From: Shewanella sp. Arc9-LZ
GTDB taxonomy: Bacteria; Pseudomonadota; Gammaproteobacteria; Enterobacterales; Shewanellaceae
DNA length: 64,000 nt
Direction of reading: 5' to 3'
NCBI RefSeq assembly: GCF_010092445.1
Contig: NZ_CP048031.1
Coordinates: 3,596,001 to 3,660,000 of the forward strand
Positions 51,360 to 53,939 of this stretch are shown here, in pieces. The notes under the pieces are model-generated. The model saw nothing but the letters and a program-made list of their open reading frames with translations. It was not told where the DNA came from and did no database searches. Both the position numbers and the translations under genes were made by a program. How positions within the stretch are numbered: position 1 is the first letter of the stretch; each line of letters opens with the position of its first letter.

Positions 51360-51434
51360 ATGAACAAAAAAATATTCAGCCTTTTTATTTTCTTTTTTAT
51401 TCAGCCCACCTCTGGAGGCGGATTTTCTGTGTAA
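51360..51434 (+). CDS. pheL: phe attenuator leader peptide
   Basis: A 24-codon frame with six Phe, clustered in IFSLFIFFFI, ending TAA at 51432-51434, ahead of an attenuator hairpin and pheA. The place and logic equal E. coli pheL. The peptide goes on past the Phe cluster into QPTSGGGFSV, longer than the 15-residue E. coli leader. GGAGGC inside this tail (51414-51419) can pair with GCCTCC of the terminator. TTGACA at 51326-51331 is a probable -35. Confidence 0.9.
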   Translation: MNKKIFSLFIFFFIQPTSGGGFSV

Positions 51435-51453
51435 AAACGAAAATGAAAATTCT

Positions 51454-51483
51454 AAAGCCTCCCAACTGGGAGGCTTTTTTGTC
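51454..51483 (+). terminator. pheA attenuator terminator
   Basis: AAAGCCTCCCA (51454-51464) pairs with TGGGAGGCTTT (51467-51477), followed by T6. It lies between pheL and pheA. Confidence 0.92.
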
Positions 51484-51541: not shown

Positions 51542-53488
51542 ATGCAAAAACCACCTGAGTTAAGTCAAACTCGTGAACAGATAACTGCCTTGGATAAATC
51601 CTTATTAGCGTTGTTATCTCAGCGCCGCCAATTGAGCCTAAATGTTGCACGCAGCAAAGAAGTTGATGTTAGACCGATACGAGATACACAACGAGAAAAA
51701 GAACTACTTGAAAGACTAGTACAGCAAGGGCGCGACCAAGGACTTGATGCACATTTTGTGATATCACTTTATCAAAGCATTATTGAAGACTCGGTTTTAT
51801 TTCAACAAACGTATCTTCATGGTAGAGCTAACCCAGACACTCAAAAGCAGCAATATACTGTGGCTTATTTGGGTGCTAGGGGTTCTTACTCTTACTTAGC
51901 TGCAAGCCGTTACTGTTCACGCCGTCAAGTCGAAATGCTTGATTTCGGCTGCAAAAGTTTTGATGAAATTGTTAATGCCGTTGAATCTGGTCATGCCGAT
52001 TATGGTTTTTTACCGATTGAAAATACCTCTTCAGGATCTATCAATGAAGTGTATGACGTACTGCAACATACAACGCTGTCAATTGTTGGCGAAACAACTA
52101 TTGAAGTGAGTCATTGTTTACTCACTAAACCCAACGGTAAACTATCTGATATCAAGACTATTTACGCTCACCCGCAGCCGATCAGTCAATGCAGTCGCTA
52201 TTTAAGTCAACATCCTCATATCAAACTTGAATATTGTTCTAGTAGTGCTGAAGCCATGACAAAAGTTGTCGAGGCGGACAGCAATACTGTCGCAGCCATA
52301 GGCAGTGCTGAAGGCGGAGCGCTGTATCAGTTAATTGCGATGGAGCAAGGTTTAGCTAACCAAAAAATCAATCAGAGTCGTTTTATTGTTGTCGCTCGAA
52401 AAGCCTCTGCGGTGCCTTCTCAGCTGCCAGCAAAAACCACCTTGATCATGGCGACAGGACAGAAGCCAGGAGCATTAGTAGAAGCATTATTGGTACTTAA
52501 AGCTCATAATTTGAATATGAGTAAGTTAGAATCTCGTCCAATACCTGGAACACCATGGGAGGAGATGTTTTACCTCGATATTGATGGCAACTTGGCTACT
52601 ACCGAAGTACAACAAGCGATTAAAGAGTTAGAGCGCCTTACTCGTTTTATCAAAGTATTAGGCTGTTATCCATGTGAAACCGTTAAACCTACACAACTAT
52701 CGCAAGCTCAATTATTAATTGAACCCGGTAGCTCTAAACAAGAGCCAATCAAACCTATACCAAATAGCCAAGCTAAGCATTCACGCGACTATAAATCACA
52801 AGATACTCAATTGTTCTGTCAGCACTTACAAATAGGCGCCGGACAATTTAGCGCATTACAGCAAATTAACTTACCGATAGATAATACCGAACTGGCTACG
52901 CAAGCAAAGCACATCAAAGAATCAGGCTTTCAAGCCATTGTGCTCAATGATTTAAAACAACAACTCAATGAACAACAATTAAAACAGCATGCACAGGTCA
53001 TTGAACAAGCTGGTTTATTATGTGTAATGCAAATAGATCAAGAACAAGAGTTTATCGTTGCTAGCCAATTAGCAGATATGCTGATATTAAGTGGTAAACA
53101 AATGTACAACCCGGACATGTTAACCTTAATTGGTTCCGTCAATTTGCCGGTAATATTAGAAAGAAACACCATGGCTAGTATCGATGATTGGCTACAAGCT
53201 GCCGATGCAGTCCTTAGTCACGGTAATCAACAACTCGGGCTATGCGAATCAGGTGTACGTAGTTTCACGCACCCAGAGCAGTTAAGCCTCGATTTAGCCG
53301 GATTGGTTGAAGTGAAATCCCGCAGTCATTTACCTGTAATCGTTAACACGAGCTTCTGTATTAATGCTGCACTGTTAACTACTCATGCAAATGCCGTTAA
53401 GCAACTTAATGCTGACGGAATTATATTGTTACATCAAGATGGTGTATCGCAAGCTGATATTATTCATGGTTTATACCAAGCAAAGTAA
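51542..53488 (+). CDS. pheA: Chorismate mutase / prephenate dehydratase with extra DAHP synthase-like domain
   Basis: A 648-residue protein; the usual P-protein is about 386. Chorismate mutase covers 1-90, prephenate dehydratase 105-285 (LGARGSYSY, PIENTSSGSINEV, SRFIVVAR) and ACT 298-376, with Phe-binding GALVEAL and ESRP. After a polar linker (380-425), residues 428-645 resemble a type I-beta DAHP synthase (GNQQLGLCESGVRSF, SHLPVIV). The catalytic GPCS and GGAxKPRTSPY segments are missing, the KRG Lys is Glu540 and the metal His is Phe605, so this domain is probably inactive and regulatory (inference). The start is ATG 51542 behind GAGG. Confidence 0.94.
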   Translation: MQKPPELSQTREQITALDKSLLALLSQRRQLSLNVARSKEVDVRPIRDTQREKELLERLVQQGRDQGLDAHFVISLYQSIIEDSVLFQQTYLHGRANPDTQKQQYTVAYLGARGSYSYLAASRYCSRRQVEMLDFGCKSFDEIVNAVESGHADYGFLPIENTSSGSINEVYDVLQHTTLSIVGETTIEVSHCLLTKPNGKLSDIKTIYAHPQPISQCSRYLSQHPHIKLEYCSSSAEAMTKVVEADSNTVAAIGSAEGGALYQLIAMEQGLANQKINQSRFIVVARKASAVPSQLPAKTTLIMATGQKPGALVEALLVLKAHNLNMSKLESRPIPGTPWEEMFYLDIDGNLATTEVQQAIKELERLTRFIKVLGCYPCETVKPTQLSQAQLLIEPGSSKQEPIKPIPNSQAKHSRDYKSQDTQLFCQHLQIGAGQFSALQQINLPIDNTELATQAKHIKESGFQAIVLNDLKQQLNEQQLKQHAQVIEQAGLLCVMQIDQEQEFIVASQLADMLILSGKQMYNPDMLTLIGSVNLPVILERNTMASIDDWLQAADAVLSHGNQQLGLCESGVRSFTHPEQLSLDLAGLVEVKSRSHLPVIVNTSFCINAALLTTHANAVKQLNADGIILLHQDGVSQADIIHGLYQAK

Positions 53489-53594: not shown

Positions 53595-53939
53595 TCATAC
53601 TGCTAGGCCATCATTTAAACTTATCCAGCCTTTAAAAATACGATAACTGAACCAACTAACACCCAGTAAGTACATGGGTAAACTCAGCCATAAAGGACTA
53701 AGCCAATATCCTGCAATAAAAAATGGACATAGGCCAATAATACTCATACGTTGCCAACGTAGATGACTACCCAACACAGAGTCTGGGTTGACGTTCTTTT
53801 GGATCAAATTAAGCCAAAAACTCAATAATACAGGCACAAAAAATAATGGAAAAGCACTCATTAAGCCGTAAAGAAAATGCCCTAAGGAATTATCTTCAAC
53901 CTGTTGAACAGGTAGCATATTCGATGGCATCATCGACAT
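53595..53939 (-). CDS. Small membrane protein, DUF4870-like
   Basis: A 114-residue protein with about three hydrophobic segments: FFVPVLLSFWLNLI near 33-47, MSIIGLCPFFIAGYWL near 67-82 and LWLSLPMYLLGVSWFSYRIFKGW near 86-105. HLRWQ after a loop with DSVLGSH is like the small DUF4870-type membrane proteins ('SHARWQ'). GGAGG lies six bases ahead of ATG 53939. It lies between pheA and tyrA, facing the latter's direction; no function is known. Confidence 0.75.
   Translation of the reverse strand: MSMMPSNMLPVQQVEDNSLGHFLYGLMSAFPLFFVPVLLSFWLNLIQKNVNPDSVLGSHLRWQRMSIIGLCPFFIAGYWLSPLWLSLPMYLLGVSWFSYRIFKGWISLNDGLAV

Follow-up and report, generated by a model that had tools for sequence, protein, structure and literature searches.

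The P-protein of E. coli, which we take to be about 386 residues long and to have no C-terminal barrel, shares its chorismate mutase (CM), prephenate dehydratase (PDT), and ACT body with the PheA encoded in the window (the whole stretch of 64,000 nucleotides of Shewanella sp. Arc9-LZ DNA analyzed here), which does carry one. The E. coli pheA gene also has a Phe leader and a gene order near tyrA-aroF as in the window.

Type I-beta DAHP synthase barrels are joined in one chain with an AroQ chorismate mutase, as in the window PheA, in the DAH7PS-CM proteins of Prevotella and Porphyromonas and in the CM-DAH7PS proteins of Bacillus, Listeria, and Geobacillus. Functional interdependence of the domains is reported for DAH7PS-CM: the P. 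gingivalis CM domain without its barrel has a Km of 207 versus 19 uM, about eleven-fold up, and an AF3-based model of the same protein places the beta4 and beta5 loops within the barrel-barrel interface (PMC12202928). In Shewanella, the aroQ-pheA of S. oneidensis is said by Song et al. 2005 (PMC1173090) to carry a fused "pseudogene of aroA-I-beta" and is termed bizarre. That protein belongs to the same family as the window PheA, and Song et al. likewise judge its fused I-beta domain dead; the bare observation of a dead fused domain was thus already reported in 2005 for S. oneidensis (PMC1173090).

Layout of the locus and loss of the active site

Table 1. Features of the pheA region, with positions in the window and residues of PheA.
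Feature	Residues	Position	Strand	Remarks
Phe-rich leader ORF, ahead of pheA		start 51360	+	sequence inspected by eye
Phe_leader attenuator RF01859, 5' of pheA		51362..51483	+	81.9 bits vs gathering 55
pheA, CM-PDT-ACT-linker-dead DAHP synthase barrel	1-648 (648 aa)	51542..53488	+
Chorismate mutase domain	1-92	51542..51817	+	eight CM active-site residues present
Prephenate dehydratase domain	105-292	51854..52417	+
ACT domain	297-385	52430..52696	+	GALV and ESRP motifs
Linker	386-424	52697..52813	+	pLDDT <50 at 392-409
Dead type I-beta DAHP synthase barrel	425-648	52814..53485	+	complete (beta/alpha)8 in the predicted model
LERN, replacing LKRG	539-542	53156..53167	+	K207 to E540, G209 to N542
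GNQQ	561-564	53222..53233	+	non-catalytic face of barrel
CESGVRSF	568-575	53243..53266	+	formerly CERGIRTF
NTSF, replacing DPSH	602-605	53345..53356	+	metal-ligand His lost, D269 to N602

Since a Phe_leader match and a Phe-rich reading frame (51360-51483) stand before pheA, its expression is probably subject to attenuation by Phe. A 114-residue protein without a Pfam match is encoded on the minus strand (53595-53939) between pheA and tyrA. Membership of the window PheA among the P-proteins is supported by all eight CM residues and by both ACT motifs; the CM residue list and roles were taken over from the E. coli P-protein, and the GALV and ESRP motifs are assumed to serve in Phe binding. The match to NCBIfam PRK10622 covers profile positions 5-383 of 386 with 531 bits, under the cut-off of 577. 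The PDT motif reads SRF (Ser279), where we take TRF to be the usual form; Ser occurs there in 22 of 36 dead-fused rows (the window counted), 11 of 26 unfused rows, and 1 of 12 intact-fused rows.

A sequence-only reading of the window had proposed that the PheA tail descends from a type I-beta DAHP synthase and has lost its catalytic residues, and both proposals hold up. Homology supports the origin, and the tail is predicted to fold as a complete (beta/alpha)8 barrel of the DAHP synthase type; from Shewanella sequences alone, a barrel of the TIGR01361 family is modeled completely and with confidence. Chance resemblance was rejected. We scored nine catalytic residues, using roles and Thermotoga numbering that we assume to be Cys102, His272, Glu298, and Asp309 for the metal and Arg126, Lys131, Arg133, Lys207, and Arg240 for the substrate. 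Far from a complete set, alignment leaves at most 2 of the 9 in the window barrel. Metal-ligand positions 102, 272, 298, and 309 are Asn, Phe605, Leu, and deleted, respectively; Arg240 (R573) is the only substrate residue clearly retained, Lys207 is Glu540, and a Lys aligned to position 131 is doubtful, lying at the edge of a deleted loop. The barrel scores 101.5 bits against the TIGR01361 equivalog, under the cut-off of 267.75. All 19 Shewanella rows among the 51 fused domains tabulated keep 0-2 of the 9 residues, while E540 is found in 71, N542 in 63, and N602 in 67 of 72 Shewanella rows. With a predicted enzyme fold present, catalytic residues gone, and purifying selection acting on it (see below), the PheA tail is a pseudoenzyme domain, its catalytic loss being read from sequence.

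That the barrel has instead evolved a different catalytic activity might be argued from the few polar residues fixed at the old active site, but with the metal ligands all gone, the substrate loop deleted, and the catalytic face variable, we consider this extremely improbable. Homology-based naming already calls some dead barrels DAHP synthases. Relatives of the Agarivorans type are entered in public records as 3-deoxy-7-phosphoheptulonate synthase with their metal ligands mostly absent, and one dead domain of this type (L053:2683-4683) reaches 278 bits on TIGR01361, over the cut-off of 267.75, which makes such domains liable to misannotation.

Maintenance of the barrel in Shewanella

Of 129 Shewanella genomes, the window genome counted, 128 encode PheA together with its tail in a single open frame that spans at least 622 codons from stop to stop. 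The lone exception (G095, L086) has pheA in two adjacent frames, split within the PDT part. A Shewanella algidipiscicola record (P0064) of 366 residues begins in the ACT domain and contains the dead barrel; these two splits may be sequencing errors or real. The extended length first noted in the window protein recurs across the genus, with 604-703 residues among 72 fetched rows, and the tail is shortened in a few Shewanella, whose proteins have 604-617 residues (L080-L082, L084).

Pooled over 19 usable pairs of the same 72 genes (19 of 2556 pairs fell within the chosen range of synonymous divergence, and pairs are non-independent), the omega values are 0.078 (barrel), 0.115 (linker), 0.022 (CM), 0.023 (PDT), and 0.012 (ACT), all of them far below 1. 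The barrel is fast-evolving, with a median pairwise identity of 40.6% versus 81.6% for the core (2556 Shewanella pairs). We conclude from these sequence comparisons that the Shewanella barrel is under purifying selection; an omega of about 0.08 bears out the earlier view that the tail is maintained and not decaying.

The pseudogene reading of Song et al. 2005, in which the tail is decaying, has in its favor the loss of the catalytic residues, the fast divergence, the few shortened tails, and relaxation or loss in the sister genus g2. It has difficulty with the omega of 0.078, the single long frame in 128 of 129 genomes, and the confident, complete barrel model obtained from Shewanella sequences alone. 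Overall we hold it to be very improbable, and for Shewanella, frame retention and omega together rule it out. For part of g2 it is possible: domain omega there is 0.11-0.96, a relaxed range, and 6 of 14 g2 genomes have only a PheA of unfused length (381 residues in each of the 3 fetched from these 6), which indicates that the barrel is dispensable in them. In three g2 genomes (G001, G005, G007) a free, full-scoring I-beta DAHP synthase was seen elsewhere, beside PheA, among the matches listed. The domain in family f9 (Agarivorans, Aliagarivorans, and Alginatibacterium records) has an omega of 0.006-0.035 in 4 of 6 listed pairs, the other two being saturated.

Intact fusions and repeated loss of catalysis

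PheA-length frames with fully scoring I-beta domains were found in other families of the order (394 genomes; among the matches listed). All nine catalytic residues are present in 6 of the 51 fused domains tabulated, from families f7, f14, and f15, and two of the f7 contigs match Kangiellaceae and Aliikangiella coralliicola records in sequence. Two database searches gave 219 proteins, the best 120 rows per search with one intact and one dead query and so biased to relatives of the queries, and 204 of them have at least 600 residues and a C-terminal barrel. These CM-PDT-DAHPS proteins (Aliikangiella, Melioribacteraceae, Ignavibacteria, and others) have the domain order of the window PheA and share with it a fusion-typical Gln (204/204) and a Cys in the GGC motif (203/204); they differ in that 195 of the 204 have all nine catalytic residues, against at most two in the window protein. 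Sampled fusions occur in Ignavibacteria, Melioribacteraceae, Bacteroidota, and Bdellovibrionales records. Most matches in a scan of contigs were to free enzymes from other phyla. Among the fusions of other phyla (Myxococcota, Planctomycetota, and Actinomycetota included) a residue-by-residue check found 9 of 9 residues in all ten, two of which (L128 and L133) have a short or weak PheA part.

A domain tree of 55 rows has a 98/96 branch that separates the 31 C-terminal-fused domains, whether active or dead, from 24 free or reverse-fused domains, which indicates one fusion origin that was later spread or inherited across phyla. The Gln, at position 564 in the window protein, is shared by all but one of the 72 Shewanella rows (71 of 72; L084 has Ser), by every other fusion examined from the order (36 of 36, of which 31 were tabulated and 5 added), and by 9 of 10 fusions of other phyla (Ala in L128). 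Near-universal in fusions and rare in free enzymes (3 of 21), it marks the fusion and not catalysis. Separate acquisition of the barrel by Shewanella is disfavored, as the C-terminal fusions lie on one branch and nearly all carry the Gln/Cys signature; the exceptions are Ala for Gln in L128 and Val for Cys in L128, L133, and L137. As judged from these sequences, the ancestor of the tail was part of a CM-PDT-DAHPS protein, and many present-day bacteria have such a protein with the third active site intact. Descent of the dead barrel from an active-looking trifunctional protein had not been foreseen by the sequence-only reading. For homology, loss of the catalytic residues, selection, and trifunctional ancestry, our confidence is very high.

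If active, the intact proteins would be three-function enzymes that connect the start of phenylalanine synthesis with its end. Several are named "bifunctional 3-deoxy-7-phosphoheptulonate synthase/chorismate mutase" in database records, and no description of intact CM-PDT-DAHPS proteins was found among the titles and abstract starts listed in searches of an open-access library. One protein (P0151, 1036 residues) puts four enzyme domains in one chain: a class IV aminotransferase, CM, PDT, and a DAHPS with 9/9 residues. In two others (L127:1203-4313, 1037 residues; L130:1380-4295, 972 residues), the N-terminus is longer by about 300-370 residues that match no Pfam family. Treponema has a reversed fusion, DAHPS followed by PDT (L176:3309-5297, L203:3309-5294), with a ferredoxin-like domain before DAHPS and an ACT domain after PDT in L176; its domain groups with free enzymes, so its origin is probably independent.

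Dead versions were found in families f1, f7, f9, f10, f12, f14, f20, and f25, with active and dead forms together within f7. A 74-row PheA-core tree, built quickly, with SH-aLRT as its sole support measure and with some branches long, has five active/dead changes among fused rows and ten fused/unfused changes. The number of independent losses is uncertain because the domain and PheA-core trees differ and deep support is weak. With motif columns dropped, the domain tree groups the Agarivorans-type and Shewanella domains (86/88, not starred), while the PheA-core tree separates the two with weak deep support; AU tests (p 0.11 and 0.085) are compatible with one clade holding the domains of the window family. 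On g2 and Shewanella domains as sisters, the domain and core trees disagree without significance. We make no claim of convergence for the changes from KRG to ERN and from DPSH to NP in Shewanella and the Agarivorans type, as domain trees group the two and the AU tests are non-rejecting.

The window genome has three full-length DAHP synthase candidates. In a chosen set of 21 fusion genomes, type I-alpha DAHP synthases number 1-3 in each, and a type II match is also present in 13 (in pieces in G504). Catalysis by the fused domain therefore looks redundant in all 21, including six genomes with intact copies. One type II match (G188:C16:246402-247703) is part of a 1044-codon open frame and is possibly another fusion.

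Selection on the barrel and its possible role

We classed barrel residues by the secondary structure of the predicted model, the face opposite the active site being the alpha-beta loops. Mean conservation of the catalytic and opposite faces is 0.85 and 0.72 in free enzymes (21) and 0.92 and 0.78 in intact fused domains (13), no part of the barrel being better conserved in these two sets than the catalytic face. In tests that treat columns as independent and ignore phylogeny, this order is reversed in Shewanella (45 representatives; 0.55 and 0.78, p 0.0004), the Agarivorans type (6; 0.69 and 0.87, p 0.001), and other dead domains (18; 0.40 and 0.66, p 0.0001). Compared with free enzymes, Shewanella differs by -0.30 on the catalytic face and by +0.06 on the opposite face, and the best-kept loops of the latter are GFQ, QGNQQ, and SHLP. 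On the catalytic side, the beta4-alpha4 and beta5-alpha5 loops are conserved in Shewanella at 0.80 versus 0.47 for the other loops (p 0.0001) and weakly higher in the mixed dead set (0.48 versus 0.37, p 0.009), with no extra conservation in Agarivorans-type domains (0.71 versus 0.68).

Alpha-beta loops often serve barrel stability, and the inversion of the faces may show fold retention alone. Strictly, it shows selection on the fold face alone, which would also be expected if the barrel is kept without benefit because its deletion would now expose a surface or destabilize PheA; the existence of related unfused PheA proteins and the losses in g2 genomes are in line with such entrenchment. The near-core constraint in Agarivorans-type genomes and the near-invariant fusion-specific Gln suggest that more than solubility is at stake, and we regard entrenchment as rather improbable.

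We give slightly better than even credence to the barrel being an assembly and allosteric partner, a scaffold, of CM-PDT, a role proposed from sequence patterns and with a close precedent in the raised Km of the P. gingivalis CM domain that lacks its barrel. Once type I-alpha (and sometimes type II) DAHP synthases had made the fused barrel redundant as a catalyst, it would have been kept because the assembly and allosteric behavior of CM-PDT had become dependent on it. It would act on the side away from the former active site, by way of the GFQ, QGNQQ, and SHLP loops, and also through the beta4-alpha4 and beta5-alpha5 loops, which belong to the barrel-barrel interface in the P. gingivalis DAH7PS-CM model. 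Dead barrels may pair and so hold the P-protein in an oligomer that is switched by the Phe-binding ACT domain; in the intact ancestors, one ACT sensor would then have governed Phe synthesis at both its first and its last step. The full-length PheA model has a pTM of 0.55, at which no domain contact is reliably predicted.

The old PEP pocket might instead bind another molecule, such as an aromatic amino acid or prephenate, and signal to CM-PDT. Among the 45 Shewanella representatives, which exclude the six most divergent rows (L080-L085) from the face, loop, residue-fixation, and motif-column tests, 3 of 5 fixed replacements lie in former active-site motifs (hypergeometric p 0.048): Lys has become E540 in 45/45, Gly N542 in 43/45, and Asp N602 in 45/45, with R541 retained in 45/45. 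E540 and N602 are also present in 6 of 6 Agarivorans-type domains. Near fixation of E540, N602, and N542 at the old active site makes a new ligand possible and counts against a pure scaffold, and the barrel may bind Phe or Tyr. Yet the six divergent rows have Glu540 in 5/6, Asn602 in 1/6, and Asn542 in 0/6 (Gln564 in 5/6), the remainder of the catalytic face is weakly conserved, and, given the weak grouping of Agarivorans-type with Shewanella domains, common descent instead of convergence may account for the Glu and Asn that the two have in common. Motif columns in Shewanella exceed all others (0.63 versus 0.55, p 0.03), but against ancestrally conserved columns there is no difference (0.62 versus 0.67, p 0.33), and a conserved pocket was rejected on this ground. 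We consider a repurposed sensor unlikely. PEP or DAHP as the sensed molecule, an earlier suggestion, is not supported: the barrel has neither the KRG Lys nor the KPR loop, and its catalytic face is much less conserved than the other.

The barrel might also dock AroF or another separate DAHP synthase, an idea with a precedent in the CM-DAHPS hetero-complexes of M. tuberculosis (PMC10520331), and aroF lies 1.7 kb from pheA. AroF is of type I-alpha, a different subfamily from the barrel, and the barrel-barrel contacts described for an I-beta enzyme (PMC12202928) suggest self-pairing instead of AroF binding; we judge docking improbable.

A larger picture may be drawn, which we offer tentatively as plausible but short of probable. 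One order would hold a natural series in which a trifunctional enzyme under one ACT sensor repeatedly lost its DAHP synthase activity, the dying part staying as an allosteric or assembly subunit that relays Phe (or prephenate) binding to chorismate mutase via a non-catalytic face centered on Q564, a role predating and outliving catalysis. Work on pseudoenzymes usually treats them one case at a time. In this group of related bacteria, a single fused domain can be followed through intact, dead, and decaying states to its loss, always next to the same conserved partner enzyme, and this series makes the non-catalytic service of an enzyme domain to its neighbor directly testable by swaps and truncations.

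The DAH7PS-CM and CM-DAH7PS proteins differ from the window PheA in having an active barrel, no prephenate dehydratase or ACT domain, and another domain order. The S. oneidensis report concerns a pseudogene in one species (PMC1173090), whereas the fused domain described here is genus-wide, with a predicted barrel fold, purifying selection, and a trifunctional ancestor traced from sequence.
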